Positions 3,525-53,200 of a DNA stretch of 64,000 nucleotides are shown here, in pieces. The notes below the pieces were generated by a model that had not been told where the DNA came from, did not search any database, and saw only the letters and a list, made by a program, of their open reading frames with translations. The DNA comes from Bolinopsis microptera (lineage: Eukaryota; Ctenophora; Tentaculata; Lobata; Bolinopsidae). Where the stretch lies: contig NC_087074.1 of NCBI RefSeq assembly GCF_026151205.1, positions 10,511,226 to 10,575,225 on the forward strand. Reading direction: 5' to 3'. The position numbers and the translations under genes were made by a program. Position 1 is the first letter of the stretch. Each line of letters begins with the position of its first letter.

Positions 3525-3530
3525 GATAAA

Positions 3531-4631
3531 CTAAGTGGGATAAACTCCCACTGGTCGGGTGGCCTTCCTTTGTCTTACTCTCTCCTGTCTCTCCCTCACA
3601 TACACCCACTGTTTCAGACATCTCACAAATTTAGCAATACCAAGCTCTCCGAGATGGATTTCATCACCATTTCTCGTGAGTTTTATAGCAAGCAACCCTT
3701 TACCGTCTAAAAAGTGGCCAACACCAAGGTGCCATACAGTCTGGTTAAAGCTAGAGTACAACATTTCATCAACCAAGCTGTTGAATGCCATAATGTTTTT
3801 ATTCATCTTAGGGAGTCTAGACGGTAAAACTGCTGTGACAAACAACTTCGCCTTAGGGCACAGTTTCTGGATCTGCTGGATTTTCAGGTGGAGAATGTCT
3901 ACCAGCTGGTGTATATCACCAGGTGACTGCACATTTTCAACTCGTAGATCGTTGGTCCCACAAACTAAGATGACGTTGCTATAACCAATGCAGAGCTTAG
4001 GGTCTATTGCACTGACCTTGTTGGCTTTAACACGTTCACCTGGGAAGGACTGTCCAAGGGTTCCAGTACCGACACCGAACTTGATGGGCTTGGTGTTAGA
4101 GTCGCCCATGATGATGCAGCTCCGGCTAAACTGTTTGCTCACAGTTCTCAGTGTGATGGAGAACCTTCCTGTCTGCACAGAAGACTGAGTTTCAGCAGGA
4201 CCTGTTTCATCAATACCGTGACGATACCAGGCTTGTGACGATCGTGTCATCACATACACTGAGTTAGATTCTGGACTCACACTATGAACATACTCAGTTG
4301 AGGCTTCGTTTCTGGTCTCATGGATGCACTTGAAGCACACCTTCCTGACGTCGCCTATGCTGATAGTAGCAATTTCTGAGTTAGCAATAATCTCAGACTC
4401 ATCGTCAGAGTGAAAAGGGAGCTTGCTACTAGTGGTGGTATCAACTGAGGGAGGGTAGTAGTTTATTAGGATGGAGTTGGGCTTATGGGTCAGTCTGCAC
4501 TTTGATGTAACTGCGTCTATGGCTGAGGCAAGGGGTGCTGGGATTGTGGGGGATAGGGGTGGGTCTGAATCACCAGTATAAGAGTAGTCTTCCCCAAACT
4601 TTAGGACCTGTCTTCTAGATTGTAAAACCAT
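3531..4631 (-). CDS. LINE ORF1 with SGNH/GDSL-type esterase domain
   Basis: This 366-aa protein starts at the ATG at 4631. Residues about 174-340 read as an SGNH hydrolase: GDSNTK (block I nucleophile Ser), CGTNDLR (block III) and GDEIHLGELG (block V, Asp and His). CR1 ORF1 proteins are known to carry such an esterase, thought to act on membranes or lipids during the element's life cycle. The N-terminal 170 residues are Ser/Thr-rich with a short Cys motif (VCFKC). No coiled coil or RRM is evident. It sits just upstream of ORF2. Confidence 0.85.
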   Translation of the reverse strand: MVLQSRRQVLKFGEDYSYTGDSDPPLSPTIPAPLASAIDAVTSKCRLTHKPNSILINYYPPSVDTTTSSKLPFHSDDESEIIANSEIATISIGDVRKVCFKCIHETRNEASTEYVHSVSPESNSVYVMTRSSQAWYRHGIDETGPAETQSSVQTGRFSITLRTVSKQFSRSCIIMGDSNTKPIKFGVGTGTLGQSFPGERVKANKVSAIDPKLCIGYSNVILVCGTNDLRVENVQSPGDIHQLVDILHLKIQQIQKLCPKAKLFVTAVLPSRLPKMNKNIMAFNSLVDEMLYSSFNQTVWHLGVGHFLDGKGLLAIKLTRNGDEIHLGELGIAKFVRCLKQWVYVRERQERVRQRKATRPVGVYPT

Positions 4632-35500: not shown

Positions 35501-38500
35501 ACTGACCAGGAAGAAAAGTTAACGTGGGCAAAAACAAGTGTTTTTTGCCCACCTCAGAGGTAGGCAGAGCATCTCAATGCTATCCTCTCGTGGGCTATCT
35601 TGGCCCAACCTCTCTTAAAAAAAGGAAAAAAAAAGCCTAAATTAAGAAAGATTACTGCTGAAAAATTCGAATAAGACCTCGTTATACACATTGTGGTTTT
35701 CAAAATGTATCAAGATTACTCACTGAAAACGTTAGAATTGACATCAGTCTCTTCTGGAGACGCTGATGTTTTTGCATGCTCGTCAGATTGAATGACACAG
35801 GTGAAAAGAGCATCAGCCGTGTTTTCACCAGCAGGTATGGTCAGAATTGTAGTTTGACTGTTGGTGCCAGAAACGTAAGTTCCAACTTCAATAGCATAGC
35901 TGTCAGTACCGTCAGTTATAGCATCACCCGAAGGTTTCTTCCATGTTACCGCCTCCAGCTGCTTACTCAAACCACTTACTACACAAGATATCGTAGCTTC
36001 TGTGTTTTTCAGCACTTCGCTACCCTTAGCTTTTACATCTGAAACAATCAGTCATTTAAAGTAAGCCCGCAATAAAAAATATCAACAGTATTGTACAGGA
36101 ACTGAATCATTGAACTTTCTAAACTAAATTCACTGGATCCTATGATGAGTTTAATTTTGTTTTTACAGTAGGATGTAACAAGTTATATCTTAGATATAAA
36201 ATTAAAACAGCAGAGCATCATTTATGGGCAGTTATAAATACCACCAAGTCCTAAGAAACTTACCGAAAGTAAGGAAGTTGACAACAATCTCTTTGAAAGT
36301 AGATGTTGCTGAATCCGAATATTCTACAGACTGCGCAGCACATTTGTATGTCGCGGGATTTGCAGCGACAGCTACACTTGTAAGAGTGGCAACATCGATG
36401 GTCAGAGTTGATGTCTGAATTTTGGTACCAGAGTCAGCTGATCCCTGTGCGATGGTGTACCCTGCACTATCACTTGTTATATCAGCCCCAGCATTATCCT
36501 TCCACGACACAATGACATCTGTAACCACATCTCCGATATCACAAGTCAATGTCTGAGCCACAGCGGTGGTGGCTTTTTTAGGAGTCTCCGGAACGACGGC
36601 TAAAATAATTTGATTCTTTCAAACTCACAAAACATTTGATATGTTAAAGTATCATTACATGTAGTTGTAACTAAAATAGCCTAAATTAAGAAAGATTACT
36701 GCTGCAAAATTTGAATAAGACCTCGTTATACACATTGTGGTTCTCAAAATGTATCAAGATTACTCACTGAAAACGTTCGAGTTGACATCAGTCTCTTCTG
36801 GAGACGCTGATGTTTTTGCATGCTCGTCAGATTGAATGACACAGGTGAAAAGAGCATCAGCAGTGTTTTCACCAGCAGGTACGGTCAAAATTGTAGTTTG
36901 AATGTTGGTGCCAGAAACGTAAGTTCCAACCTCAATAGCATAGCTGTCAGTACCGTCAGTTATAGCATCACCCGAAGGTTTCTTCCATGTTACCGCCTCC
37001 AGCTGCTTACTCAAACCACTTACTACACAAGATATTGTAGCTTCTGTGTTTTTCAGCACTTCGCTACCCTTAGCTTTTACATCTGAAACAATCAGTCATT
37101 TAAAGTAAGCCCGCAATAAAAATATCAACAGTATTGTTGTGGGTTAGAAAGAAAGGGGGTAGATCGTCTAGGTTTGAGATATGTTGAGTAGATGTAGGAC
37201 TTTGTTCCAACAGATTATCTGTCTGTTCCCACGATGGAAGTTTGCGTTGTGTTTTAGTTAGGCTTTGTATTTGTAGTGTAGACAATAAAATACAATGGAT
37301 GTGGGTAATAAACAAATTAACAAGCAACCAAAGGACGATGGTAGATTACGTTTAAGTCTTTGTTAAAGTTGAGTGGGCGTTCAAGAAGTGGGGAATTATG
37401 GGTGTGTCTAGGGTTTTTATAGGTTGTATCATTGACGTAGGGTTTACAATCACGGAAACGATTATCTTAGTCATCGTTTCCGCTACTTGAAATCATGAAC
37501 AATGAGCGTGCACTGGACAAACGGGACAGAACAATGAGAACCCTCGCTCATCTATTACTCCATTAATTACTTTTCCCTATAAGATGATTCACCTATAGAT
37601 GATTCACCTTTACGTTGTGAAGCCAATTGTTTGTTAACCTCTGGCGTCACAATCAGTTCCGGTTTGCAGTCACAGGCCCTGTCTGTGACCTATTAACTAT
37701 AAGTTACCTCATTTGGAGATGTGCCAAGCACAAGCAGATAGCTGGCAACCTGCCAACAGGGGATAGCAAAGTTATATGGCTTAGAGTGTGCAAAGGGTGA
37801 TCCCACAACCTTCCCCCCTTAAGAAGAAAAAAAATTTTTCAAAATGTTGTTAGGAACCTACCATCGTTTTAAAAATAAATATCGTAATAAATCAATTTAC
37901 CATCTTTTAAAAGAAATAGTTTAATGTAATGAGTAGATATCTTGAATGAAGTCTTTTACCCTTTTTATTTGTCTATAAAATACACGAATACTTAAATCAC
38001 ACGAAAAATTAATTTTGAAAATAATAATTTATTTTTGGATTTCTATCTTTTTCTCTTAAAACACAAGAATAAATATTTTTATATAGTTTGTCACAATCAA
38101 TAATAACTAGAAACATCGGTAATTGAAACTTCTTTCCGCATTGTATTTTTAATTGGTTTTAACAAAATTCGTTTCTCGTTAAAATTGTCTGTGACCACTT
38201 ATAAATTCACACATAAATCAATTTAATATAATTCCAATATTTTACATACGTTTTTCAATTTTGAACGACACCTTGAAGGTTTAAAATAGAGCGTTGGTTG
38301 GTGATTCAAATTTGTGGTTAATCTTGGTTAAACCATTTTAGTGCTTTGTTCCTATTGAAGATAAATTTGTAATCAATGTGAGTCATAAGTTCACTTGGCA
38401 AATGATTGTAACTATTAGTATTATAAAGGCACGATAGTTCAATATAAATTTCCAGGATTATTGTTAGTTCTTTTAGCAAATGAAATTTTTTCCTTTTAGG

Positions 38501-41500
38501 AGCCTTTTTGCATATTACACTGTTTTGTAAAAGTCGTTTGAAGAATCTTTTATTATGTTGTTCTAGGTAAGCTGATATTACACACATTAATGGTTTTTTG
38601 ACAAGGTATTTCTGATATAACTGCTGGAAAATGAACTTTGATGTTTGGATGATACTTTGTGGAGATTTTGTTTTGGCTGCAAGGGTCAGTTCATTTTTGA
38701 GTTTTATGAGGCGAGGAAGGGATGGGGCACTGTACGATTTTCGGGTAACATCGAATTGTGAGTAGTGAGTTGCGATGCTAGATTCGCTTATTTGCACCCA
38801 TTTGTTGAGGAAATACGGGTCCAGCAGATGTCGCAATGTACGGCTCACAGCTCTTAATTGGAGGAGGTCGTCAAAGTGTAACAATAGCGCTATATTGAGT
38901 ATGATTTCCTGGGGGAGCAAAGAAAACATGGCGAAATGAAGGAACCAATGCAATAAGTGATGTTAGAGCAGGCCGGCCTCCAGGAAAACTGATTCTTGTG
39001 CCCGGAGTTGATGGCATTGTTCTATTGTAGTGAGTTAATTTGGATGCTGGTACTGTGTGTAAAGAAGCTTCATAGTTCAAAAGTTTTAAAATCTGTCGTG
39101 ATGCCGTGTTGTTTTAGAGATTGTGATACTCCCATTGTGGAAGAACTGCCCTCGATGGATATATGGATCCCTATGAGGCTGGTGCACGGGAGTAGAGATG
39201 GGGGTCTGGCGTACTGCATGGACCATTACATGAGTGCAGTACGCCAGTACAGCAGATTTAAAGGACACGAGAGCAGGGTATGTTGGTTTTGTTATTATTT
39301 GCTGGTCGTGATTTCGTTTTTGGATCATTTAGGATGTTAATGACGTGGATTGAGCAGTTTTTTTAATAGTCTTTATTTCAGGGCTTCGAACGTGGTCGCG
39401 ACGGCTTTAGGGTGACGGTGTGCAAAGCTCAAGACGCCGTGGCTGGTATAGCTGGTCGAATTCATTTCCAGCAATGTTTAAGGCCGGCTATAACGGGAAC
39501 CGGTCATATGTTCCATGCACAGCGGTTGTATGGGGCAATCATACGGCAGATTGCGCTTTGCCGGGGAAACCAATGGCTACACGTCAGTAGGGCAATTATT
39601 GATTTCGGCAAACAGAAGTTCGCCGAACTGGGCGACTGGTTATTTCCCGGGCCAGCTTCCCAGTTATGCTTGAATTGCAAGCATAAATCAAAATTCCATC
39701 TCGTCGAGCGTAGTCAGCGGCTACCCTTGTGCCATTATTGTATACTCAGGATACACGTTCGAGGTTAGATCTTTATGTGTGTTACAGTTTGATAGATGAA
39801 TTTTTCTTTGGTGAAGGTCATGTTTTACTATTGTTATGGTTATGTGCAATATCCAATTTTCAGTCCCTATGTGGCAAGGCAGGAACGCCATAAATCATTA
39901 TATGATGAGCCAGCGTCAGAGATGTTTCCTGCTAGGATAAAATGAGGTAATTAGCTAGCTGTTTTTATGCTGAAGTTAGGTACGAAATTGTAATATAGCA
40001 CAACTGATTTGTTACAAGGCTCAACAAAACAGATATGGGCGTATCTTGTTTTTGTTGATGTCAACCAAAGAATTCAATTTGTTTTTTGTAATGGTGTCGT
40101 TCAAAATTCGGAATTTCACGGTTTTGAAATACTTAGTTGATGCAGCTCCAAGTATGATATCGAGAGGCTCGGACACTGGGTACTTTTTAAGAGCTCTTTG
40201 AAATTGGTGCCTTTGCTTATTTAAAAATCGGTTTCTTCTTGATTTTGATGAATAATTTAAAATTTGGCATTTGACAGTTTCCGTAATTTTAATAAATATT
40301 TTAACACACAGCGCATCATTCAAAAATTGCAAAAGTAGCGGTACCGTTTCTAAAGGTACCAGAGTTCGGTATCTGTTTTTGGAAGAACTGAAATAATATC
40401 CACAGTTTCTTGATATTTTAGATTCTGAGCTATGTAATGCTTCAGATAATTTAACATAGTCAGTATTGTTTTTTAAAACTCGTAGCACAGCGTGTACCCT
40501 GTTTGATATATGTTGCATGAAGATGAAGTTGAGAGCGTCTCTTTTAGGTATCAGGTCTTGAACAGTCAGGTAGATTAGGATCAAGCATTTCTTGTGATTC
40601 GATGTCCAATTGAGAAAGGAGTCCATTTTTTGAGTCTCTGGTGGGCATTTAGCCATTATGGGGACGTTAAAAACGTCGACATTGAAGTCATTTAGGGGAC
40701 GTTGTGAGACGTCGACATTAAAGTCATTAGGGGGACGTTGTGAAACGTCGACATTAAAGTCATTAGGGGGACGTTGTGAAACGTCGACATTAAAGTCATT
40801 TTGCCAGCTGCCAATTTATACTGCCAATATCATGCTCATGTTTTGATGTGTTTGTGTGAATGATTTATCCAATATTTGCTTGAGCCTTAACCGATCTTGT
40901 TGAACGTTTTGGTGTTGATGAAGTGCTTGGATGGAATGATGTTGATGCTGAATTTGCGGGGGTGTTTTGATGAACGATGATTGATGTCTCTTCTGGTTCC
41001 TCGTCACTTTTTTCGACAATATTTTGTCGTGGAGGTGGAGCAGGTCGACTTGTTCCTCTGTGTCGTATTCCAGAACCTCTAGTAGTCGAATGTAATGGTA
41101 GTTCGTCTTGTTGCTCAAGGTGACGATATGACATCTCATCTGTCTCTGGTGTAGATTTGTCAGCACGTCTAAGCTTTAGGATTTCCTTTTTTAGTTGCAT
41201 TAACGTCTTTCCATGTTTGGTATGTCTTTTCTTTGAGTTTAACACGCATAATGCAATTATTGTGAAACACCACAATGCAATAGACAGGAATGAAGCGATC
41301 TGTATAATGATGCTATAGGCAGAATCTGTTAACAGTTTGCTCGGTTTGTACTTCAATAATCGAATTGTTTCGTCCTGTTTTTCGATAAGCTGATGAATCC
41401 GTGTGAAGTTTGACTTCTGATGTTTTCTTGCACTTGTCGCGAGTTCTTGAACCCATTTGTTAACGTCTAGAGAAGGCTTCCAATGAACTGTGTTGGTTAT

Positions 41501-44500
41501 GTCTTCTGGTCGGATAGAGTACAAAACTCTACTCTTTAATTGTACTTGAGAATATTCTTTCCATGAGTAAAGTTTTGTTTCAGTTTCGGGAGTGTCTATC
41601 CTATTGATCTTTTGGGAGCTTCCTATGTTAATCCCGTAAACTGGATTTCCGTCTCGGAACGTCAGGGCTCCTGCTGAAACTTGTGCAACATAAGGTTTAC
41701 AGTGCACTTCTTCCGTATCGCATTGAGAAGCTTTGTTTAGACAAGCAATCTCAGGTGCGTCTTTGTCTTTTTCGAAGTTATCGAGACAGACCAGCAGTCC
41801 TGATGGTCGAGTTTCACACTCTGACTGTTCCGCGGAGTAAAACTGATCAGCTTTAAGGTAGATCCGTTTAGGAAGTTTAATTCGAAGACAAGTTTCGTTG
41901 CTTTTTACAGGAACTATAGCTGGCTCAAAGTGAGGAAATACAGCATTAGGTTCCACGTACATTGTTGACAGCACGAAATGCATAAGAAAACTTTTGTCTT
42001 CTTTTTGAATTCGAACTAGAGTCAGGTCCCCGGCTCTGAGAAGTAGTTGACTGTTTGTTGCATATATGCTGTTTGCGAAAATTGGATTGTTATTGACGAA
42101 GTACTCAAGGTCTTCTGCTAACAGTATAGCTGGAGAAATTGGTTGCGTAAGCACACCTCTATTTACTCCATGAAATACGTTGTTAACTTTTTCCCTGTAC
42201 TCGTCAAATACCAGGTTTTCGATAGCATATGTGGACAGTGATGTTATTGCACATTGGAGTTCACTTAGTCTTTCATCCACGCTTTCTTGGTAATCTTTGA
42301 TTAAGTAGAGAACCTCTTTGTTGAATTGCCGTTGTTGTTCGATTTCATCATGAACTTGTTGGGTGAACTCAGAGAATTGCTGATCAAGGTGAGCAATATG
42401 AGATTTTAAACGTTTAATCTCATGACGATTGAAGAAATTGAAGGCCATACTTGCTAACAATCCAGCAACAGGAATAGCAGCAACTGCTACGGGCACTCCC
42501 CGTTTTACCCTTGTAGAAGGGGTGCTGTTAGTGATTGTTATGTCGTATGCAGATCGCAGGTCTTCAAATCGTCTTATATTGCGTTTCCAAATGTGATCAA
42601 CAGCTTGGTCTCGAGCTTTATTGAGCGTGGTATACAGTGCAGCATCTTTTTGTCCGCAAAACTCGGCTCTAGTTGCAAATCTTTCTGCACATACAATGTT
42701 TGCAGTGTATGTCTGGGTTTGATGCTTCGTTCATCTGTAAATTGTCGAGATCGGGCTCGTCTTTCCTTAGGAAGCACTGGCTTTTACCGTCTTTTCTGAC
42801 AGTTTGAAGTCCGAGGCATTCTGGGTCAGAGAAACAAAGAGCGACGCAAGAATTGAAGTGAGTGTTATCGTATGATCTTAGAGCTGAACGTTGGTGTTTT
42901 GTCCTCTGCCTACACATTCATCTTTAACCCAGTAAAGGTGTTTTTCAAATAAGTTTTGGTCTAAGTCACACTCGGTATTCATGCAAAGTGTTGACCGTGC
43001 AGTTGAATTGATGAGTGGTTTGTTTACCCGAACGAAGATGCTGGCAAAGATTTTGCTAGATCCTGATATGATATAGTTTTTTGGTGATAGGACTATTCCT
43101 TGAGATTCGAGCATGATAGAGTCACCAGATTTGTCGATCGTGGCGGCAGGCGATGCAGCGGCAAATAATATAAATATAACGTAGGGAATCATCACAGCGT
43201 TGTTTCACTCTCAGATGTATTGATCACCCTGAAAGACACTCTGGGTAGAGAAACTTGGGGCAACCCACGTGTGTGTATGTGAGCAATAAATAAGTATAAT
43301 ACTAAAGCACGTACAATCCACGTGATTGCTAAATCAACCCAATGTCCAGGTTTCAGAGATTTAAGACCAATAAATGATAATCCTCTTGCAGTGTCATGCG
43401 TTTCATCTGTGGAGTGATTCATTCTTTGTTCTATTTCGGCCAGCTGACTTGCGAGAAAATCGACTGATGCTTCACTTTGTGAGGTATGTGAGACGTCTCG
43501 ATTAGTTGTTGCCCAAGTGGTCGGAAATGTTATGAGTTCTGATGTATAATTTGACACAATCAGGGGCAACGGAACTGCAAGATGTTGTTGAAGCCTTGTG
43601 GGCATATGTCCAGGTTGGTATCTATATAGCACCTGATTATGCATAAAGATGTGTACTGTCGTGACTTCGCAAGATATTCGAGCGGCGTATTGATGCAGTA
43701 CTTTGTCGTCTGGAGACATATACCCTTCCCTCCAGGAAGTTGTGTTTCCTCTGTAACTTACAGGTAACATGTTTGTGCAAAATCCTGGTTTAGGGCGGCG
43801 AAATGTTATCTCTACTGGCTTGCAATGACCGACAAGAATGTATTCCGAGTTCGAAGCAACTCCTATTATTGTTGAATCATTGAAATGATGACGGAGGATA
43901 TCAGTAGGATTTTGAGCTGCAGCAGACCTTACAAGCATGCTGATCATTTTAAGTGCATCACACATGTTTGTAATTTTTGCTGTTCTCAACAGAATGCTAT
44001 CTTGCAAGAATTGCATTTTATGTGTCAGCTCTTGCAACAATGGTTTGATATCATCAACAGCCATCATTGGTCCTAACAGTTGGTGTGCAGTGATTCGGAA
44101 TCCATCAATTTCCGTTTTGTCGGGTAGTTTACTTGGGTTTTCCAAGGCAAACGATAACCCTAGTGTAGGAATGATGAGATGAGACGAGATTATTGTGCCA
44201 TTAAATGTTCCAACTTGTACGAACTTGGACTGTACCATTGGGTCTGGCACATATGTTACTGCAATCCCTTGTTTTGGATCAAAGCAGTATCCTGAATCAT
44301 AATTGCAGTCTGATATATCGGCAAGGTTGGAAATAGGCTGGTGAGTGTGTGTTTTTGTGATGTAACCTTCCCTGTAATTACATAATATAACGTCCGTCTG
44401 AACAGTTGTCATCCATTTCATAGGACAATCGAAATCTGTTTTTGTTTGCTGGGTCAGTGATCCAGTTTCGTCAATGCATGATTTGGTCCTCATCAAGTCT

Positions 44501-47500
44501 TGGTATTGGCTTTTCGGTAGAATCTTATTCTGGATTGTTTTCTCTATCTCTTTGGATCCAAAAAATTGCTGCTTTGTTGTGCATCTCAGCAGCTTTACTT
44601 GGAGAGACAATGCTTTAGTTTTGTATTCCTGATTGTTAGTGCGCTCAAGTATAATAGTAACATTTTTATGGTCCGTAGTATCACAGCTTTGAATTTGTTC
44701 AGGCCATTTCATTAAGGTGAGGTGGTTTTGTGTATCGCATATCATAGCACTTTGGCAATAAGTTATTAGCAATGTGAGGAGTAGTATTCTTTCGGTGTCG
44801 TATCGTGTCATCTGAAATATTGTTTCTCTGAGTCGAAGGTACCTATCCATCCTTTGGGAATCAGTGATAAGGTGTACAGTCTTATATAATTCTCCGGATC
44901 ATTTTAATGTTTCACGTGTAGCTACACATTGCACAACCATGACTCTGAACTGTAGGAAGACTCCACCCTACGGCTGTGTACTATTATCTTATTATAATGG
45001 GACATTTAAGGTGAGTACCGAATCGGCGCTTTTCTCACGCGGGCAGATCGTCTTAGATATGTTTCGGGCGTGAATTGACTTTGAATTGAATGGTGAGAAG
45101 GTTGAGGAGATGATACTCTACCGCTGGCTGTAGAGCTTGATCTAGAAACGGCTTGATGGCCGCCCTGGATTTGTTGCGGTGATATAGAGCTTGCTCTGTC
45201 ATTTTGTTGCCGACGGGACAAAGTGTCAGAACTTCTGGAAAAAGTCTGGTGGCGCGGTGTTGACATCCTATGTGACGAAAGTCTTCCCTCAGAATGGCCA
45301 TTTCCGAGAGGCAAGGATGTGTGATACTCGCCATCAGCTTCTGCATCGGTGTTCTGGACAAGTGTTGACCGTGAGCATGGTAAAAGGAGCATTTCATCAT
45401 CATCCTCGTATCTTCTCGAGGTAGTAGATGGTTGCGGACCTGGCTCAGGTGAATCTCCAGTGATTTGTATTTCTTCCAAGTTTTCCAATTGAAGATTATG
45501 TTGTTCCATAATTTCTTGAGTTCTTGATTGTATCTTGCATTTAGTGTTTGCTGTAGTTGAGACGGGACCTTCGTGTTCTGTCGTGATGTACCATGATCAC
45601 TTTACCAGTCTTAATGTCGCAGACTTTTAAGGTAAATTCGGAGGACTTTGAAAGAACAATGTATGGTCCTCTGTAGTAAGTTCTAAATTTAGCGTAGGGT
45701 TTATCATCTGTTTTCAACTGAGGAAAGTGGATAAACACGATGTCGTTTGGATTGAACTTCACAATGTGTGTACCATATCCGTCATATTGTCTTTTGCTCT
45801 GTTCCATTTTCTTTTTTGCAACTTCTTGTACTGTTCTGAAAGCTTCCGAAAGTGCTTGTTGTTGAGACATTGCGTGTTGACCTGGCGTTTGAGTTGTTTC
45901 CAACTGAACTCCATTTACTATCTGATACGGTGTTCTCAGATTTCGTCCAAGGAACAAATATGACGGAGTAAATCCTGTTGTGTCGTTTTTGATAGAATTT
46001 AGCCCATAAATGACAAATGGGAGCATAGACTTCCAGTTTTGGACCTTTGCAGCGATTAACTTCCGGAGGCATTTGACAATTACTCCATTGTACCGTTCAC
46101 ACAGTCCATTAACGTTTGGTCTGTATGGTGAGATAACAACCTTTTTCATGTTTATGGATTCAAAGAACGTTTGGAGCACTCGTGACCCGTGTAAATTTGC
46201 TGCATTGTCAGACACCAGGGTATGTGGAATTCCGTAACTCATTGCAAACCGATTAAATGATGTGAGAACATCTGTTTCCTGTTGTCTATTCAAGACTTCG
46301 GCATACAGAAATTTCGAGAATCGATCGACAAAAACAAGGATATACGACTTGCGGTTATTGTGGTCAGTAATTGGTCCAACAATATCATAGTGTACGCACT
46401 GAAGTGGGAAGCTAGCTTGTGGAAAGTATTGCATTGGAAACCGGTTCTTTCGTTTGAACTTCAAGTTAAATAAGAAGCATTCCTCGCAGTTTCGAACGAA
46501 GTTTATGACTGATTGCTTCATTTGGGGCCAGTAAGCAGTTTCTTGGAGTGTTTCTAGCGTTTTCCCTTCACTGGGATGAGGAGATAATGTCGAGCGATGG
46601 ACTAGTTTAATTGACTCTTCCTGCAAAGCTTGTGGCACGATGGGCAGTAGCTTGTATTTCTGAGATTTCTTGAGGAACTTTTTGTAGCACAATATCTTCT
46701 GAACATTAACCGTACATTGGTCAAGCTTATTCCATAGAGCTTTCAGAGTTTGATTGAACATTTGTGCATCCTTCCGTTTTGGTTTCTCAGAATTTAGCCA
46801 GTCTAACACAAGCTTGAGGTTGGAGTCTTGCTGTTGTCCACGAATTAATCTTGCTGGGTTTGAGAACTTTGGTGCAGGGAGAGGACGGTCCTCAGTTCCG
46901 TTATAAGAAGTAGAATCGTCTCCCCGGACTGCAGAGCAAGTCTGCTCATCAGTTATTGTGGCTATAACCTTTGAATGCGTGTCCGGCGATTGTTCTTTAA
47001 TCTTCTTTGACCAGTAGGCATACAGATCGTCCGATTGTACACGTGACAGGGCATCAGCGATTTGGTTGTCTTTACCCGGTCTGTGTATAATGTTAAAATC
47101 ATACTGACTAAGATGAATTGCCCACCTGAGGAATAGGGTACCGTCTCCTTTAGACAGTAAGTTCTTGTAAGTAAGAAGCATTAAGTCTGTTTCGACAATG
47201 AACTTTGCTCCGTGTAGCAGGTAGTTATGTTTCCGTATAAAATGGTAAACTGCCAGAAACTCGATTTTGTAACTAGCCCACGTAGATTCTCTTTCGGACA
47301 ATGTTCTGCTATCGTATAAGATGGGATGAAACTTTGAGTTTGTCTCCCTATGACCAATGACACAGGCAATTGCAACCTTTGATCCGTCAGTCATTACCGT
47401 TATGGTCTTGTTTTTGTCTGGATTAACAAGAACTGGTGGATTGGTAATTAACTGCTTGAGACCTTCGAATGCGGCAATAGCTTCAGGGGTCGATTTGATT

Positions 47501-50500: not shown

Positions 50501-53200
50501 CAAACTTGTCGTTGTCATAATGTAGGTTGTCATGGTAAAGCGCTGTCATATTTGGTTTATAAGGAATTGACCCAGTAGGCGGTTGGTATGGTGTGTGTTG
50601 TGGAATATTTGTCGTGTTCTGCAATTGATTTGTGTTGTTTTGAAGGATGGGTTCTGTTGCTGCAGTTGTAGTAACTACATTTTGAGCTTCGGTTGTGGCA
50701 GGATTTGTGACAACGATGTCAAGATCTACGTCTGCCGAATGATGGCTCATATTGGCAGATAAAATCGACAGCGAAAATTGGCAGAAAAGGCAAAAAGAAA
50801 TGTGTTGTAGCTCTAACCTTGTAATTAGTAATCCAATTTGGTTTAGAGTCGCAGCACCACTTGTGGGTTAGAAAGAAAGGGGGTAGATCGTCTAGGTTTG
50901 AGATATGTTGAGTAGATGTAGGACTTTGTTCCAACAGATTATCTGTCTGTTCCCACGATGGAAGTTTGCGTTGTGTTTTAGTTAGGCTTTGTATTTGTAG
51001 TGTAGACAATAAAATACAATGGATGTGGGTAATAAACAAATTAACAAGCAACCAAAGGACGATGGTAGATTACGTTTAAGTCTTTGTTAAAGTTGAGTGG
51101 GCGTTCAAGAAGTGGGGAATTATGGGTGTGTCTAGGGTTTTTATAGGTTGTATCATTGACGTAGGGTTTACAATCACGGAAACGATTATCTTAGTCATCG
51201 TTTCCGCTACTTCGAAATCATGAACAATGAGCGTGCACTGGACAAACGGGACAGAACAATGAGAACCCTCGCTCATCTATTACTCCATTAATTACTTTTC
51301 CCTATAAGATGATTCACCTATAGATGATTCACCTTTACGTTGTGAAGCCAATTGTTTGTTAACCTTTGGCGTCACAATCAGTTCCGGTTTGCAGTCACAG
51401 GCCCTGTCTGTGACCTATTAACTATAAGTTACCTCATTTGGAGATGTGCCAAGCACAAGCAGATAGCTGGCAACCTGCCAACAGGGGATAGCAAAGTTAT
51501 ATGGCTTAGAGTGTGCAAAGGGTGATCCCACATTGTACAGGAACTGAATCATTGAACTTTCTCAACTAAATTCACTGGATCCTATGATGAGTTTAATTTT
51601 GTTTTTACAGTAGGATGTAACAAGTTATATCTTAGATATAAAATTAAAACAGCAGAGCATCATTTATGGGCAGTTATAAATACCACCAAGTCCTAAGAAA
51701 CTTACCGAAAGTAAGGAAGTTGACAACAATCTCTTTGAAAGTAGATGTTGCTGAATCCGAATATTCTACAGATTGCGCAGCACATTTGTATGTCGCGGGA
51801 TTTGCAGCGACAGCTACACTTGTAAGAGTGGCAACATCGATGGTCAGAGTTGATGTCTGAATTTTGGTACCAGAGTCAGCTGATCCCTGTGCGATGGTGT
51901 ACCCTGCACTATCACTTGTTATATCAGCCCCAGCATTATCCTTCCACGACACAATGACATCTGTAACCACATCTCCGATATCACAAGTCAATGTCTGAGC
52001 CACAGGGGTGGTGGCTTTTTTAGGAGTCTCCGGAACGACGGCTAAAATAATTTGATTCTTTCAAACTCACAAAACATTTGGTATGTTAAAGTATCATTAC
52101 ATGTAGTTGTAACTAAAATAGCCTAAATTAAGAAAGATTACTGCTGCAAAATTTGAATAAGCCCTCGTTATACACATTGTGGTTCTCAAAATGTATCAAG
52201 ATTACTCACTGAAAACGTTAGAGTTGACAACAGTCTCTTCTGGAGACGCTGATGTTTTTGCATGCTCGTCAGATTGAATGACACAGGTGAAAAGAGCATC
52301 AGCCGTGCTTTCACCAGCAGGTACGGTCAGAATTGTAGTTTGACTGTTTGAACCAGGATCGTAAGTTCCAATATCAATATTATAGCTGTCAGTACCGTCC
52401 GTTATAACACCACCCGAACTAGGTTTCTTCCATGTTACTGCATCCAGCTGCTGACTCAAACCACTTACTACACAAGATATTGTAGCTTCTGTGTTTGTCA
52501 GCACTTCGCTACCCTTAGCTTTCACATCTGAAACAATCAGTCGTTTAAAATAAGCCCGCAATAAAAACTATCAACAGTATTGTACAGGAACTGAATCATT
52601 GAACTTTCTAAACTAAACTCACTGGATCCTTAGATCCTATGATGAGTTTAATTTTGTTTTAACAGTAGGATGTAACAAGTTATCTTAGATATAAACTAAC
52701 TGACCACAGCGTTTCACCAGCTCAGTGTCTAAGAGCTGCAATAATACGTAATAATTTGGCCCTTTATTGAATGAATTGTTGCACGAAAATCATTAAACTT
52801 CTAGCTTACTTGATCATCAGTATGACAGATAAAACTGTCAGCCTAGATATGTTACGCTCACCCAGTGTTAGAATGGTAGCTTCGACTTCTACGTTGCTGG
52901 TTGCAGGAGAATCTGTGTATTGGCCAGACTGGACTGAGCACTTGTAGGTCACTGATGATAGACTAGTAAAATCAGGCAGCTTCGCAGCTTTGATGGTTAG
53001 TTCTGCTACCTGATTTCCGCTTCCATCTACTGATCCTCGGCTGAAACCATAGTTGTCGGTATCCCCTGTCAAAACTTCAGCACCATCATTATCCTTCCAA
53101 GTTACAGTAGCAGGGGTTCCACTAGGGTCGAGCCCTCCGATATTGCAAGTCAATGTCTGGTCTACAGTGATGGTGATATCCTTGGGAGTCGAAGTAACAT
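25810..53200 (-). CDS. Tectorin-like matrix glycoprotein gene: Ig array, sushi, ZP, Ig, C-terminal anchor
   Basis: Minus-strand exons: 53200-52862, 52527-52210, 52041-51706, 37082-36768, 36599-36264, 36038-35724, 35414-35085 (seven Ig), 34738-34571 (sushi), 34329-34243, 34143-34043, 33858-33765 (ZP-N), 32260 to about 31970 (ZP-C start), 27344-27177 (ZP-C), 26840-26710 (ZP end, furin-type site), 26575-26431, 26211-26048 (Ig-like), 25889-25810 (tail and stop). Module exons are mostly phase 1, which lets them shuffle and duplicate. VWD modules at 54.6-62.8 kb share strand and end in a phase-1 donor, so they are probably the 5' part of the same gene, giving the VWD-ZP order of alpha-tectorin. The exon between 32.0 and 27.3 kb is incomplete. 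Introns are loaded with mobile DNA. Function inferred: extracellular filament or apical matrix. Confidence 0.7.
26710..26840 (-). CDS. ZP-domain end with furin-type cleavage site
   Basis: The exon encodes FGCTDLCLKNRRKRFAEVSS and continues to a GTGAGA donor. The paired Cys followed by RRKR fits the consensus cleavage site that ends ZP domains and releases them for polymerisation. It lies directly after the ZP-C exon 27344-27177. Confidence 0.7.
27177..27344 (-). CDS. ZP-C subdomain exon
   Basis: The exon begins CIVDSTFKFIETD and has the hallmark KRFIFKAFSF, then IYIHAVIKVCSFSD before a GTAATG donor. The F-x-F-x-x-F-x-F core and the IYIH strand are typical of ZP-C. Boundaries are TTTCAG and AACAG/GTAATG. 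Confidence 0.75.
27392..28648 (+). mobile_element. 5'-truncated LINE fragment (RT C-terminal half)
   Basis: The open frame 27393-28307 encodes the region after the RT active site: LQKDIDYLHDWSLSNKMRF, HPDKCKV, DLGVIV, LEGLQKRAIKWIL. This pattern is seen in CR1/jockey-type proteins. The catalytic motifs are missing, so this is a dead 5'-truncated insertion. A 3' UTR and an A-rich tail (AATAAAAAAAAAAC) end at about 28648. A 16-bp duplication (CCTGATATCCTGCGA) lies at the 5' edge. It sits in an intron of the tectorin-like gene, opposite strand. Confidence 0.85.
28786..31460. mobile_element. piggyBac-like nonautonomous element with long internal palindrome
   Basis: TTAA at 28782-28785 and 31461-31464 flanks 14-bp terminal repeats CCCATTAGGGACGA; TTAA targets and CCC ends suit piggyBac. 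Internal arms of about 595 bp (28917 to about 29511, and about 30505-31103) are reverse complements around a 1-kb spacer. The outer 130 bp (left) and 357 bp (right) are unrelated to each other. No transposase is visible. A GGGTC-N6-GACCC-like motif recurs at 28940, 29078, 29226, 29368, 30637, 30779, 30927, 31065 and 31429, with shorter forms at 28917 and 31089. The spacer has C and G homopolymers (about 29791 and 29985). Confidence 0.85.
31573..31640. repeat. C run plus short hairpin
   Basis: A run of about 16 C is followed by GCATAGGGGGAGGTGAAA and, after a few bases, its reverse complement TTTCACCTCCCCCTATGC. It forms a strong 18-bp stem just outside the right end of the piggyBac-like element. 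Confidence 0.75.
31968..32260 (-). CDS. Start of ZP-C subdomain (exon, 3' limit uncertain)
   Basis: After a TTTCCCAG acceptor the frame encodes ATKYASWEVKGAAIVEK, GSLRFLLDIYED and FPFQLTLNANINMQV, matching the first strands of ZP-C (L-x-x-Y-x-D, then a hydrophobic strand). A good donor is not evident; AACATGCAG/GTCTTG near 32094 is a candidate. A further frame at about 31684-31800 (LDPDQSLGVVRIQAKDSE) has an acceptor-like start but was not placed. Confidence 0.55.
32580..33725 (+). mobile_element. ORF1-only LINE (HAL1-like) with (ATTTC)n tail
   Basis: The element carries one coding frame (32718-33479) that resembles a LINE ORF1, then a 240-bp 3' UTR containing TTGATATAAGCGGGAT and a tail of about four ATTTC units. 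No endonuclease or RT frame lies between ORF and tail. The truncated copy at 4821-5240 shares both the coding end and the 3' UTR, so the ORF1-to-tail junction is a family feature, not a local deletion. The 5' end is not defined. Confidence 0.75.
32718..33479 (+). CDS. LINE ORF1-type RNA-binding protein (coiled coil plus RRM-like)
   Basis: About 253 aa from the ATG at 32718; a GTG two codons upstream is not used. Residues about 35-75 are a charged heptad-like helix (DIKKDMEELKSDLIRSQ), likely a trimerising coiled coil. An RRM-like part follows (NVLIFGFEETSEENL, then KIRPVKVSFEN) and the conserved C-terminal block VFISPDRSPEERTIHQQLV. In LINEs such proteins coat the RNA. It is intact, which is notable in an element without RT. 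A 24-codon upstream ORF starts near 32600. Confidence 0.8.
   Translation: MNEYESEFSVETFKKPVKAVLVKHLYSAYRTTSNHVNMVLDIKKDMEELKSDLIRSQSTVIKLQAELLESKSKQLESVHSTVKTSVRDTVQAGIITYSQAVLKAAPVLTEESLKKVVQNVISEEDRTKNVLIFGFEETSEENLSHEVSEMFQQIDEKPHFEAIRVGKKSAEKIRPVKVSFENSSTVHQILVKAKELRLIPRHKTVFISPDRSPEERTIHQQLVLKMKQIAKEDTDKHYYIRSDKICCKDKVVE
33765..34329 (-). CDS. ZP-N subdomain, three small exons
   Basis: Exons 34329-34243 (VATVTCDGYGIKLFI), 34143-34043 (TDLDKCGTTVFYNN, VIYKNQ) and 33858-33765 (ITRGGELKISFECSF) build the ZP-N fold: C-D, then CGT with Y-x-N, then an I-x-R strand and a Cys. Donors are GTATTT, GTAAGA and GTGAAA, and acceptors all end CAG. Confidence 0.75.
34571..34738 (-). CDS. Sushi (CCP) domain exon
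   Basis: The 168-bp exon encodes PCSMPVIEQGIISPYSTID, GSTYEIRCDSGFVITGPS and CTDGTLSESPSCPP. The four-Cys pattern, the tyrosine before the second Cys and the terminal CPP identify a complement-control module. It lies between the last Ig exon and the ZP exons, like module linkers in other ZP proteins. Confidence 0.85.
35085..37082 (-). CDS. Four Ig-domain exons left of the retroelement
   Basis: Exons 37082-36768, 36599-36264, 36038-35724 and 35414-35085 each encode one Ig-like domain with the Cys-Trp-Cys core (for example TLTCDIGD, VSWKD, TYKCAAQS). Two types alternate: a 315-bp type B (37082 and 36038, differing at a few residues) and a type C (36599). The last exon is a type A relative. Introns between B copies are also nearly identical, so the block arose by recent tandem duplication. 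All junctions are phase 1. Confidence 0.8.
37134..37137. repeat. Target-site duplication, left copy (TTGT)
   Basis: TTGT directly precedes the left LTR and is repeated at 51533-51536 after the right LTR. The duplicated introns near 36095 and 52575 show the empty site AGTATTGTACAGGAAC, which confirms a 4-bp duplication. Confidence 0.95.
37138..37807 (-). repeat. 3' LTR of the gypsy-like element
   Basis: 670 bp with 6-bp terminal inverted repeats TGTGGG/CCCACA. It differs from the 5' LTR by a missing C (ACTTGAAATC against ACTTCGAAATC) and a C/T change in GTTAACCTCTGG. A TATAAAAA box lies at 37414-37421 on the minus strand. Confidence 0.95.
37808..37820 (-). promoter_or_regulatory. Polypurine tract
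   Basis: AAGGGGGGAAGGT on the minus strand abuts the 3' LTR. This is the expected primer for plus-strand DNA synthesis. Confidence 0.85.
38318..38929 (-). CDS. F-box protein encoded in the retroelement
   Basis: The first ATG of the frame is at 38929 (203 codons); the frame is open a few codons further upstream. Residues 3-45 read as an F-box: LLPQEIILNIALLLHFDD then LLQLRAVSRTLRHLL and a Trp near the end. F-boxes bind Skp1 and recruit targets to cullin ubiquitin ligases. The rest is Lys- and Leu-rich with no known domain, possibly the target-binding part. It is the last gene before the polypurine tract and diverges from the antisense gene, with 81 bp between their start codons. Role inferred: degradation of a host factor. 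I know of no established precedent in LTR elements. Confidence 0.6.
   Translation of the reverse strand: MFSLLPQEIILNIALLLHFDDLLQLRAVSRTLRHLLDPYFLNKWVQISESSIATHYSQFDVTRKSYSAPSLPRLIKLKNELTLAAKTKSPQSIIQTSKFIFQQLYQKYLVKKPLMCVISAYLEQHNKRFFKRLLQNSVICKKAPKRKKFHLLKELTIILEIYIELSCLYNTNSYNHLPSELMTHIDYKFIFNRNKALKWFNQD
39011..39940 (+). CDS. Antisense spliced Cys-rich gene in the retroelement
   Basis: Plus-strand model with exons 39011-39277, 39382-39763 and 39864-39940. Donors are AGG/GTATGT and CGAG/GTTAGA; acceptors are TTTATTTCAG and CAATTTTCAG. The frame is kept through both junctions and ends in TAA, giving 241 codons from ATG 39011 or 211 from ATG 39101. Introns are 104 and 100 bp. The protein has CCFRDC and CMDH near the N-terminus and CLNCKHK with CHYC near the end, possible zinc ligands. 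It matches no family I recognise. Introns on this strand survive because the element's genomic RNA is the other strand. Transcription could start in the 3' LTR or just upstream. Confidence 0.5.
40021..40656 (-). CDS. Unknown accessory protein of the retroelement (211 aa)
   Basis: Starts at the ATG at 40656 and is open for 211 codons between the env-like genes and the antisense gene. It is Lys- and Asn-rich, mainly helical in appearance (LVPLETVPLLLQFLNDAL) with a basic stretch SSKSRRNRFLNKQRHQFQ, which could be a nuclear or nucleic-acid-binding patch. No signal peptide or membrane segment. Not recognised; nearly the same length as the F-box protein but not clearly related to it. Confidence 0.5.
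   Translation of the reverse strand: MAKCPPETQKMDSFLNWTSNHKKCLILIYLTVQDLIPKRDALNFIFMQHISNRVHAVLRVLKNNTDYVKLSEALHSSESKISRNCGYYFSSSKNRYRTLVPLETVPLLLQFLNDALCVKIFIKITETVKCQILNYSSKSRRNRFLNKQRHQFQRALKKYPVSEPLDIILGAASTKYFKTVKFRILNDTITKNKLNSLVDINKNKIRPYLFC
40660..40801 (-). repeat. Four 36-bp tandem repeats between env and the accessory genes
   Basis: On the plus strand, units begin GGACGTTGTGAAACGTCGAC; the first copy is variant. Each holds a small inverted pair (GACGTT/AACGTC) and a GTCGAC site. It lies just before the 211-codon ORF start on the minus strand, so it could be a promoter or enhancer for that gene. Confidence 0.9.
40865..43192 (-). pseudogene. env-like gene 2: furin site, fusion-peptide-like segment, coiled coil, TM (disrupted)
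   Basis: The ATG at 43192-43190 overlaps the env-like 1 stop (TGATG). A signal peptide (IPYVIFILFAAASPA) leads a short frame that stops at 42878. A Cys-rich, PAN/apple-like stretch (NSCVALCFSDPECLGLQ) is open in another frame (42917-42669). The original frame then resumes after a stop near 42730 and stays open to 40865. It holds a furin-type RVKR site, a hydrophobic fusion-peptide-like segment (GVPVAVAAIPVAGLLASM), a coiled coil, several Cys, a membrane segment about 395-419 residues into the downstream part and a tail of about 120 residues. This is the plan of a class-I-like surface/transmembrane glycoprotein. Two compensating frame changes, or sequence errors, break it. Confidence 0.65.
43192..44850 (-). 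CDS. env-like glycoprotein 1 (552 aa)
   Basis: A single open frame with an internal signal peptide (ILLLTLLITYCQS, about residues 22-34), many Cys (CDTQNHL, CDTTDHK, GYCFDPKQG), several N-glycosylation sequons and a C-terminal membrane segment (WVDLAITWIVRALVLYLFI, about 505-525) with a short tail. The plan is a type I viral surface glycoprotein, but there is no obvious furin site or fusion peptide. It follows pol and the Ser-rich ORF, and its TGA overlaps the next ATG. The fold class was not assigned; a captured glycoprotein of another virus group is possible. Confidence 0.6.
   Translation of the reverse strand: MDRYLRLRETIFQMTRYDTERILLLTLLITYCQSAMICDTQNHLTLMKWPEQIQSCDTTDHKNVTIILERTNNQEYKTKALSLQVKLLRCTTKQQFFGSKEIEKTIQNKILPKSQYQDLMRTKSCIDETGSLTQQTKTDFDCPMKWMTTVQTDVILCNYREGYITKTHTHQPISNLADISDCNYDSGYCFDPKQGIAVTYVPDPMVQSKFVQVGTFNGTIISSHLIIPTLGLSFALENPSKLPDKTEIDGFRITAHQLLGPMMAVDDIKPLLQELTHKMQFLQDSILLRTAKITNMCDALKMISMLVRSAAAQNPTDILRHHFNDSTIIGVASNSEYILVGHCKPVEITFRRPKPGFCTNMLPVSYRGNTTSWREGYMSPDDKVLHQYAARISCEVTTVHIFMHNQVLYRYQPGHMPTRLQQHLAVPLPLIVSNYTSELITFPTTWATTNRDVSHTSQSEASVDFLASQLAEIEQRMNHSTDETHDTARGLSFIGLKSLKPGHWVDLAITWIVRALVLYLFIAHIHTRGLPQVSLPRVSFRVINTSESETTL
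45006..45509 (-). CDS. Ser-rich ORF with integrase-tail-like end (167 aa)
   Basis: Begins 32 nt after the pol stop, in another frame. The body is acidic then Ser/Gln-rich with no domain, and it ends RRSARVRKAPIRYSP. That ending resembles the basic tail that many Ty3/gypsy integrases carry after the GPY/F module. Either it is a separate accessory protein or the pol tail detached by a frame change. The latter seems more likely. Confidence 0.5.
   Translation of the reverse strand: MEQHNLQLENLEEIQITGDSPEPGPQPSTTSRRYEDDDEMLLLPCSRSTLVQNTDAEADGEYHTSLPLGNGHSEGRLSSHRMSTPRHQTFSRSSDTLSRRQQNDRASSISPQQIQGGHQAVSRSSSTASGRVSSPQPSHHSIQSQFTPETYLRRSARVRKAPIRYSP
45541..49134 (-). CDS. pol: pol: protease, reverse transcriptase, RNase H, integrase
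   Basis: 1197 codons from the first ATG, but the frame is open further up to the gag end, so it is probably made as gag-pol. Protease LLDTGS (about residue 9), RT with LVVDYRTLNSYTI (331) and FFDDLLIS in place of YxDD (about 431), RNase H VMTDGSK (581) and ETD, integrase His-His-Cys-Cys zinc finger (H846, CEEC 883-886), then catalytic HYDIVGP (D about 917), VSDNAA (D about 976) and GLCERYNG (E about 1013), and a GPY/F-type YRGPYIV module (about 1165). Domain order and GPY/F place it in Ty3/gypsy (Metaviridae). No internal stop. Confidence 0.93.
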   Translation of the reverse strand: MNSNVYALLDTGSVYTIIDSKYVPEINKRSMVAVNIKLMTANGSSLSVLGKIKLPIVIGKMKYNWPFLIVEKLLHIAILGGDFLKENKMTINYHTMTLRGKSKKDVTEIKQFNSPPVFMAMQKEAVTISQYGVIDAQLVQSNAPCSVSGYFLYVPDITLWKTNDQLPVNFVVSIVDGIFQIAVATNSDVQLFLPASTILGKLVQLRTNVNSIEQQSEDEVEKIIKLLKIDENPHLSEQNKNILKRMVTKYSDVFSTDALNVTPTDLLTAEIHLTPDAPEVIFVKPRRLPLHLVEQTEEEVQKLLDSGVITPSLSPHNSPAVIVKKPNGKIRLVVDYRTLNSYTIGYTCPIQSVDEIVHSVGGKMFYCTFDIKSAYHTLPLKEEHQSLTSFSVGSKTYQWTRLATGIKNAPAYYLKFLQGVFQDQLHQICVFFDDLLISDDSFDGIVKKFEIVLERLHMAKVKLAPEKCEIYQKRVKFLGSFISKEGFTMCHDRIRHILSLEFPTTRKGLQRVLGVFNFVRRFIPKFSEVIKPLTMLLRGNQEISRIKSTPEAIAAFEGLKQLITNPPVLVNPDKNKTITVMTDGSKVAIACVIGHRETNSKFHPILYDSRTLSERESTWASYKIEFLAVYHFIRKHNYLLHGAKFIVETDLMLLTYKNLLSKGDGTLFLRWAIHLSQYDFNIIHRPGKDNQIADALSRVQSDDLYAYWSKKIKEQSPDTHSKVIATITDEQTCSAVRGDDSTSYNGTEDRPLPAPKFSNPARLIRGQQQDSNLKLVLDWLNSEKPKRKDAQMFNQTLKALWNKLDQCTVNVQKILCYKKFLKKSQKYKLLPIVPQALQEESIKLVHRSTLSPHPSEGKTLETLQETAYWPQMKQSVINFVRNCEECFLFNLKFKRKNRFPMQYFPQASFPLQCVHYDIVGPITDHNNRKSYILVFVDRFSKFLYAEVLNRQQETDVLTSFNRFAMSYGIPHTLVSDNAANLHGSRVLQTFFESINMKKVVISPYRPNVNGLCERYNGVIVKCLRKLIAAKVQNWKSMLPFVIYGLNSIKNDTTGFTPSYLFLGRNLRTPYQIVNGVQLETTQTPGQHAMSQQQALSEAFRTVQEVAKKKMEQSKRQYDGYGTHIVKFNPNDIVFIHFPQLKTDDKPYAKFRTYYRGPYIVLSKSSEFTLKVCDIKTGKVIMVHHDRTRRSRLNYSKH
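49215..50750 (-). CDS. gag: gag: capsid and two zinc knuckles
   Basis: 511 aa from the ATG 111 nt after the 5' LTR. The central part (about 105-270) matches retrotransposon capsid (FLMAFDNYCTVIGL, FAERLEKMINLIPTC, DAFINGLRSERVAY). Two CCHC knuckles follow: CYSCKKIGHLRRDC and CQYCKMKNHWTHEC. The C-terminus is Arg/Gln/Pro-rich, then acidic. Translation ends at a TAA directly after a slippery AAATTTT. Confidence 0.92.
   Translation of the reverse strand: MSHHSADVDLDIVVTNPATTEAQNVVTTTAATEPILQNNTNQLQNTTNIPQHTPYQPPTGSIPYKPNMTALYHDNLHYDNDKFDYNNMPGLGDITPPNRDSFKLFGGKKPHEFNHGDDVHDFLMAFDNYCTVIGLPPSASFKVFCTFLDNKSLSRVMSLNLTDKQTTNWHAAKEMIVKKLDPNYNSRMSVDELFNIKQTSEETILDFAERLEKMINLIPTCKKMPGSTKEELLQDAFINGLRSERVAYSLLTTSGLDRYGKLVEHSQHLDKIIGKLKSRPIGGDGLSDTAALLNIQDQEQEKSPKSQPPAVPVQIMKRPETRTCYSCKKIGHLRRDCRMAKFCQYCKMKNHWTHECFKKERREDQDNRNNRMRSVEKGRAQHSNGWYPSVPNSFGRSRPNYSSQPRYQYQPQQYQRADTPARPPMPRRPYPNSRETNTGERKTREGQQSPNWKREVQPNQQRVTFQSRPQVNTILEDGSESRTTMENYSPYIDVSQLLLSDDDDTPKSENF
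49218..49224 (-). promoter_or_regulatory. -1 frameshift site at the gag end
   Basis: A AAT TTT in the gag frame fits the X XXY YYZ rule and is followed immediately by the gag stop TAA. Shifting back one base opens a frame that runs without a stop into the protease. No downstream pseudoknot was worked out. Confidence 0.8.
50846..50859 (-). promoter_or_regulatory. Candidate primer-binding site
   Basis: TGGTGCTGCGACTC begins 2 nt after the 5' LTR, as expected for a site pairing with a tRNA 3' end (GCAGCACCA). The tRNA was not identified with confidence; a serine tRNA with one wobble is a guess. Confidence 0.65.
50862..51532 (-). repeat. 5' LTR of the gypsy-like element
   Basis: 671 bp, nearly identical to the 3' LTR. 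A TATAAAAA box at 51138-51145 on the minus strand gives a plausible start of the genomic RNA. No AATAAA was seen on the minus strand within the LTR. Confidence 0.95.
51533..51536. repeat. Target-site duplication, right copy (TTGT)
   Basis: Follows the CCCACA end of the LTR and continues into ACAGGAACTGAATC, the same sequence that follows TTGT in the two uninterrupted intron copies. Confidence 0.95.
51706..53200 (-). CDS. Three Ig-domain exons right of the retroelement
   Basis: Exons 53200-52862 (type A: TLTCNIGGL, TWKDND, TYKCSVQS), 52527-52210 (type B) and 52041-51706 (type C). The type C translation is identical over 109 residues to the exon at 36599-36264, with about two silent or edge base changes. 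Before the retroelement landed, the order along the gene was A-B-C-B-C-B-A. Confidence 0.8.

Follow-up and report, generated by a model that had tools for sequence, protein, structure and literature searches.

A Ty3/gypsy-type element of the ctenophore Bolinopsis microptera with two envelope-like genes and accessory genes around the second envelope

The subject of this report is a long terminal repeat (LTR) element in a 64,000-nucleotide stretch of the genome of the ctenophore Bolinopsis microptera (assembly GCF_026151205.1, contig NC_087074.1, positions 10,511,226 to 10,575,225 of the forward strand), here called the window. The element lies on the minus strand, runs from 51532 to 37138 and measures 14,395 bp, with no N in this span. 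Very probably it is a young Ty3/gypsy-type endogenous retrovirus from a ctenophore lineage with the plan LTR-gag-pol-env1-env2, in which accessory genes are placed around env2. A sequence-only reading had likened its organisation to that of a complex retrovirus. This likeness was upheld: the two envelopes differ in origin, an F-box gene and a spliced opposite-strand gene are present, and there are signs of constraint on the env genes, on the open reading frame (ORF) ORF211 and on the opposite-strand gene. The coordinates of the features are collected in Table 1.

The insertion is certain and young, because the LTRs are nearly identical, TTGT stands on both sides and matching empty sites are present. 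One substitution and one 1-bp indel separate the two LTRs, in agreement with the two differences reported in the sequence-only reading. When joined, the 200-bp host flanks aligned over 397 bp, at 99.2% identity, with a neighbouring repeat that has no insertion (35894-36290), and a second empty site was located at 52382-52695 with 91% identity; the earlier argument that duplicated empty sites prove the insertion is therefore correct. A putative primer binding site and a putative polypurine tract were recognised from sequence, and no tRNA was found in the 64-kb window to name the primer. The insertion site is surrounded by near-identical host repeats (35894-37137 and 51533-52700). By eye, these repeats carry a 109-aa immunoglobulin-like ORF (36232-36561 and 51674-52003), for which Pfam gave nothing at 0.01.

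Gag and pol are each a single open frame with the full Ty3/gypsy domain set and can be regarded as intact, as had been claimed. The pol frame can be read back to 49224 without a stop and shares about 10 bases with the end of gag, an arrangement that would suit a frameshift. ORF167 is probably the tail of pol in another frame, because the pol-end ORF of a diverged relative (L058, described below) has a similar acidic tail with basic residues at its end. By its predicted domains the element is Ty3/gypsy and stands outside Retroviridae. Pol has the order protease, reverse transcriptase (RT), RNase H and integrase, gag has a zinc knuckle, the LTRs have TG...CA ends and the target site duplication is 4 bp long, while the Pfam matches of pol, env1 and env2 at E up to 1 included neither a second retroviral RNase H nor a retroviral env family. 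No Pfam family of retroviral accessory proteins was matched in the element, and an NCBIfam search returned nothing beyond Pfam. Troyka (PMC12440569, partial text) was considered as a candidate and rejected, given the TG...CA ends and the 4-bp duplication of the element described here.

Table 1. Features of the element, in window coordinates
Feature	Position	Strand	Remarks
5' LTR	50862..51532	-	671 bp; TG...CA ends
Putative primer binding site	50846..50859	-	2 nt inward of 5' LTR; from sequence
gag, 511 aa	49215..50750	-	Retrotrans_gag 1e-7, zinc knuckle 8e-5 (Pfam)
pol, 1197 aa	45541..49134	-	protease, RT, RNase H, integrase (Pfam)
ORF167, low-complexity	45006..45509	-	overlaps pol end in another frame
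env1, 552 aa	43192..44850	-	C-terminal membrane span; bornavirus-G/Monjiviricetes fusion type via relatives
env2 N-terminal part (signal peptide)	42878..43195	-	frame shared with fusion part; stops between
env2 PAN-domain part	42723..42893	-	other frame in window copy; tblastn with P0001, P0003
env2 fusion part, 543 aa	40865..42496	-	fusion peptide, heptad repeat, membrane span; open to 42730
Tandem repeat, 36 bp, 4.1 copies	40654..40800		between env2 and ORF211
ORF211, candidate accessory protein	40021..40656	-	open frame
Opposite-strand gene exon 2	39382..39768	+	preceded by AG acceptor
Opposite-strand gene exon 1	39101..39277	+	followed by GT donor
F-box protein ORF	38318..38953	-	first ATG near 38929; F-box-like 3.7e-7
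Putative polypurine tract	37808..37820	-	precedes 3' LTR; from sequence
3' LTR	37138..37807	-	670 bp; TG...CA ends
Target site duplication TTGT (4 bp)	37134..37137 and 51533-51536		seen in flanks

By gene order, the two-envelope arrangement is a trait of the lineage, since it repeats in three diverged families and since a Mnemiopsis sequence, P0004, joins an env1 tail to env2. A search of the genome (264.65 Mb, 232 contigs) with env1 gave 73 matches, which are pieces rather than loci and include diverged loci with long open frames. At four such loci (L057, L058, L059 and L060), representing the three families, we looked for a neighbouring env2. The order pol-env1-env2 was observed in all four, with env1/env2 open frames of 557/845 aa (L057), 534/727 aa (L058), 534/741 aa (L059) and 552/714 aa (L060). 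Gag lies upstream in L057, L058 and L059, and the L060 stretch starts within pol. L058 and L059 belong to the same family, with 99.5% identity across 9.18 kb; in its C8 copy the 371-bp LTR stretches differ at a single point. The pol region of L058 is made up of two open frames. No LTRs were found for the C2:5.05M and C3:6.12M families within the sequence examined. Comparison across families gave 26-36% identity for the integrase-side part of pol. In P0004 the env1 tail (E 3e-36) stands directly ahead of env2, and this sequence and L057 are mutually closest (env1 tail 43%, env2 58%); the pair was thus either inherited together across two ctenophore genera or moved together. The window element and ten short copies of it, described below, match both env regions. 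Between pol and env1 of L060 (2707-3258) there is a further ORF, whose end resembles a hAT transposase tail by eye and which is perhaps a nested insertion.

The two envelope genes are of different kinds. Through its relatives, env1 can be placed by sequence similarity among the bornavirus-G/Monjiviricetes glycoproteins. P0005, which is 68% identical to the env1 of the window, matched Monjiviricetes_fusion at 4.4e-8 (32 bits, cut-off 27). The more distant env1 of L057 (26% identical) matched both BDV_G (7e-13, residues 24-422, 48.2 bits, cut-off 27) and Monjiviricetes_fusion (1.4e-11). L058 env1 matched BDV_G at 1.2e-6 and, under the cut-off, Glycoprotein_B at 8e-4, and the Monjiviricetes_fusion score of L060 env1 (26.5 bits) was just under the cut-off of 27. 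At E up to 1, four of the six proteins in the aligned env1 set matched Monjiviricetes_fusion and three matched BDV_G. Bornavirus G has been assigned to the class III fusion proteins by prediction (PMC2753318, partial text). A membrane span scored over threshold in the env1 of the window, L059 and L060, and none did so in L057, the fourth protein scored. A sequence search against solved structures returned one weak unrelated chain for the narrower env1 profile and no match for the wider one, and no relative of P0005 was found among IMG/VR viral contigs.

Env2, as far as its sequence features indicate, is an F-type protein of class I that furin would cleave and whose N-terminal part contains a PAN domain. 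The gene plan comprises a signal region, the PAN domain, a furin motif, a hydrophobic fusion peptide, a heptad repeat and a membrane span. It contains the sequence features expected of class I, namely the furin site, the adjacent fusion peptide, the heptad repeat and the C-terminal membrane span. In the window the furin site is found directly upstream of the 543-aa ORF, inside the open frame reaching 42730, and is followed by a hydrophobic stretch; the same succession and a C-terminal span were seen in all three relatives examined (L057, L059 and L060). Further relatives are P0001-P0004, one of them named Mnemiopsis leidyi, and in P0001 and P0003 env2 is a single protein of 837 and 859 aa, respectively. 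PAN_1 was detected in four of eight env2 members at E up to 1, including P0001 and P0002. In the search against solved structures, the wider env2 profile retrieved PAN-type micronemal and plasminogen chains together with one unrelated weak chain, and the narrower profile retrieved one weak unrelated chain. The F-type assignment comes from L060, whose env2 matched Fusion_gly (paramyxovirus F0) at 4.7e-10, over the curated cut-off, across residues 219-556. The gypsy genus Errantivirus has a baculovirus-F-like env; no baculovirus F family was among the Pfam matches at E up to 1. No relative of the window env2 part was found among IMG/VR viral contigs.

Beyond env2, the sequence-only reading had announced three accessory genes, one of them antisense and spliced, and these were recovered as candidate genes: ORF211, the F-box ORF and, on the opposite strand, a gene whose intron has GT-AG ends. 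ORF211 had no Pfam match over the cut-off. The F-box ORF of the window scored 30.2 bits against a Pfam cut-off of 24.3, and ORFs with weaker F-box matches are located between env1 and env2 in L058/L059 and after env2 in L060. For exon 2 of the opposite-strand gene a relative, P0007, was found on a 542-base contig at 51% identity. P0007 has six further genome matches beyond the window. Four of these (two at C7, one each at C12:4.16M and C12:4.56M) are minus-strand matches next to env matches that run as in the window, so the gene was turned round, either in the lineage of the window or in that of the relics; the other two, at C12:10.58M, are inside a rearranged relic with matches in both directions. 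In C12:4.16M (L033 2983-3476) the gene is inverted and thereby sense relative to env2; it is also sense relative to env in C12:4.56M and C7:18.09M, so its direction is not fixed in the family.

Coding constraint was estimated as the ratio of amino-acid-changing to silent substitution rates (dN/dS) between the window and the ten short copies; the copies are mutually related and hence not independent tests. The ratio was 0.24-0.38 for env1, 0.26-0.50 for the fusion part of env2, 0.30-0.58 for its N-terminal part and 0.24-0.33 for ORF211, each in all ten copies. With C6:5.28M left out, nine copies gave 0.21-0.39 for gag and 0.16-0.53 for ORF167. Exon 1 of the opposite-strand gene gave 0.12-0.17 in nine copies, there being no match in C4, and against the decayed copy C12:4.16M it showed 0.10 changes per amino-acid site with silent sites saturated. 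Exon 2 gave 0.18 over 64 codons, against C12:4.16M only. These ratios carry the signature of coding constraint on env1, env2, ORF211 and the opposite-strand gene, the last of which, at 0.12-0.18, is by this measure under purifying selection.

The close copies of the element lack most of gag-pol. Ten short copies (C2:12.88M, C4:8.0M, C6:0.12M, C6:5.28M, C6:11.2M, C9:3.1M, C9:16.4M, C10:5.15M, C12:12.45M and C13:8.65M) retain the accessory block, the env region, a 5' part of gag and at most scraps of pol, and their LTRs start 8.1-8.9 kb apart. Two types of deletion can be distinguished. C2, C4 and C9:16.4M have nothing between about 45651 and 49899, and the remaining seven keep pol scraps. The left deletion edge at 45650-45651 is common to nine of the ten, with C10 ending at 45626. 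The sequence-only reading had suggested checking whether all copies carry the accessory block. The ten close copies do carry it; the stretch 39351-39772, which holds exon 2, is missing from every one of them and exon 1 is also missing from C4. The outcome which that reading had named as refuting, family members without the block and with a clear nested insertion boundary, was looked for and not seen in these copies. Five decayed or rearranged copies, kept outside the short-copy counts (C12:4.16M, C12:4.56M, C12:10.58M, C150 and C7:18.09M), contain parts of the block. Solitary LTR matches were found at C8:17.04M and C10:14.87M (1.5 kb on each side), and the LTR matches at C5:20.96M, C7:6.80M and C11:10.10M had no accessory-block match there. 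Among the genome matches, whose counts are lower bounds, there was no second full gag-pol of this family.

Env and accessory frames are broken in the ten short copies. Frame-changing indels numbered 125 in 4,410 env1 codons (ten copies) versus 2 in 1,946 gag codons (nine copies), counts that are inflated by permissive gap costs and for which gag coverage is partial in several copies. The 5' part of gag is nearly without frame changes while env and accessory sequences have decayed in the same copies (for example L030, L031, L032 and L041). The retained gag stretch may serve as a packaging signal or encode a truncated Gag. The LTRs of C4, the only pair measured, are identical over 726 bp. Because this copy lacks pol, such a trace of recent movement implies a helper that probably moved it.

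Several observations weigh against the proposed two-envelope lineage with its accessory genes. The env1 of the window itself had no viral Pfam match, Fusion_gly was matched by just one of eight env2 proteins, and the types of both envelopes are thus taken from relatives. Structure predictions were poor for env1 (predicted local distance difference test, pLDDT, 33.5) and for the env2 of P0002 (pLDDT 43.0), so that the fusion class of either is putative. Env2 of the window is frame-broken, its PAN part being out of frame with both flanking parts; the two env-like genes of the earlier claim are present, and the second is not intact in this copy. The rearranged C12:4.16M copy has env2 and no env1 match. 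For the F-box ORF, dN/dS was 0.52-1.21 in the ten copies, a range that does not indicate selection. The F-box matches in L058, L059 and L060 (8.9e-4, 1.5e-3 and 0.018) are all under the cut-off, and no F-box was found among four ORFs scanned around L057.

If the element works as its genes suggest, particles would bud bearing two glycoproteins. Env2 would bind through its PAN domain and fuse after furin cleavage, and env1 would serve in attachment or in a further step of fusion. The F-box protein could couple host targets to the SCF ubiquitin ligase as a countermeasure, and the opposite-strand gene would be made from its own spliced transcript and may regulate expression. The pol-less copies of ~9 kb would be mobilised in trans by full-length members.

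The envelope pair can also be explained with one fusion protein, env2, to which env1 is only an attachment partner, or with both as subunits of one envelope. HN/G is such an attachment partner of paramyxovirus F, the two genes are adjacent and co-inherited, and a furin motif with a hydrophobic stretch is present in env2 only. We regard this explanation as unlikely, although it deserves attention, since env1 has its own membrane span in three of the four proteins scored and relatives matching viral fusion glycoprotein families, and env2 has a signal region, a cleavage site, a heptad repeat and an anchor of its own. It is quite improbable that the short copies are relics that lost gag-pol one by one and without a helper. 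Their broken env and accessory frames would be expected of relics, but the left deletion edge shared by nine of the ten, the absence of 39351-39772 from all ten and the two deletion types argue against separate losses, and the broken C4 copy with its identical LTRs moved recently. Least credible of all, and very improbable in our view, is a composite origin, in which a plain gypsy element received host or viral genes in a one-time insertion and carries the accessory block as a passenger. The ten close copies have the block in common, except for exon 2 and, in C4, exon 1 as well. ORF211, both env genes and the exons of the opposite-strand gene give dN/dS values well under 1, and weak-F-box ORFs adjoin env2 in two other families. 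These points outweigh the reversal of the opposite-strand gene relative to env in several relics, which shows that its place or direction changed, and the F-box dN/dS, which is not clearly below 1.

Together, these results favour the young endogenous retrovirus of a two-envelope ctenophore lineage proposed at the outset. A more far-reaching reading, which we put forward tentatively and at somewhat less than even chances, is that this is an old ctenophore lineage of complex retrovirus-like metaviruses. Such viruses would combine two fusion machines without common origin, one of class I F-type and one of class III G-type, with an F-box hijack of ubiquitin ligases, a spliced opposite-strand gene and their own pol-less satellites, and their complexity would have evolved independently near the base of the animals.

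The rest of the window contains other repeats. A largely open non-LTR retrotransposon occupies 129-4631 on the minus strand and, by eye, has a 1131-aa endonuclease-/RT-like ORF and a 366-aa upstream ORF. Large tandem arrays at 7196-8873 (19 bp x 90) and 10940-14667 (47 bp x 79) account for the extreme GC skew of opposite sign in these two stretches. Further ORFs resembling RT fragments of other retroelements were noted by eye at 27393-28307 and 59001-61381.

Retroviruses and retroelements normally have one entry glycoprotein. A conserved pair of unrelated fusion-type proteins, both with kin among the glycoproteins of negative-strand RNA viruses, prompts one to ask what two fusogens would do jointly and how RNA-virus glycoproteins get into retroelements. 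The presence of an F-box gene and an opposite-strand gene suggests that complexity in accessory genes came about outside Retroviridae, in a phylum close to the animal base. The pol-less copies are a natural setting in which helper-satellite dynamics of an endogenous retrovirus can be tested.

Complex retroviruses such as lentiviruses and deltaretroviruses have accessory genes beyond env, hijack ubiquitin ligases and include a spliced antisense gene (HBZ). The element described here resembles them in its accessory genes beyond env, in its F-box, through which a link to ubiquitin ligases may be made, and in its HBZ-like spliced antisense gene. It differs from them in its Ty3/gypsy-type pol, its two envelope genes and the lack of any matched retroviral accessory family. 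Non-autonomous LTR elements without pol, such as TR-GAG, keep their LTRs and part of gag and are moved in trans. The short copies are alike in having LTRs and part of gag but no pol, and differ by their long decayed env and accessory sequence. Envelope-carrying Ty3/gypsy elements, the metazoan errantiviruses of Chary and Hayashi 2025, are reported to be widespread, ctenophores included, as cited in PMC12859917 and PMC13172572 (partial texts), and share with the present element a Ty3/gypsy gag-pol with env. The two-envelope lineage is an addition to these already reported elements. Among the papers listed, which were screened by title and opening of the abstract and did not include the text of Chary and Hayashi 2025, none was seen to report a comparable two-envelope element. 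TelKA of bdelloid rotifers (PMC5408684, partial text) similarly has a paramyxovirus-F-type env (pfam00523) with furin site and fusion peptide. In the text covered it differs in having one envelope, other ORF3 types being a GDSL esterase or a DEDDy exonuclease, and no PAN domain, second glycoprotein or F-box was seen there. Chuvirus-type type III envelopes in BEL/Pao and gypsy elements (PMC13172572, partial text) are a parallel in so far as env1 is a candidate type III fusion glycoprotein carried by an LTR retroelement; in contrast to these, the relatives of env1 match bornavirus G/Monjiviricetes, and env1 has a protein with class I features as its partner.
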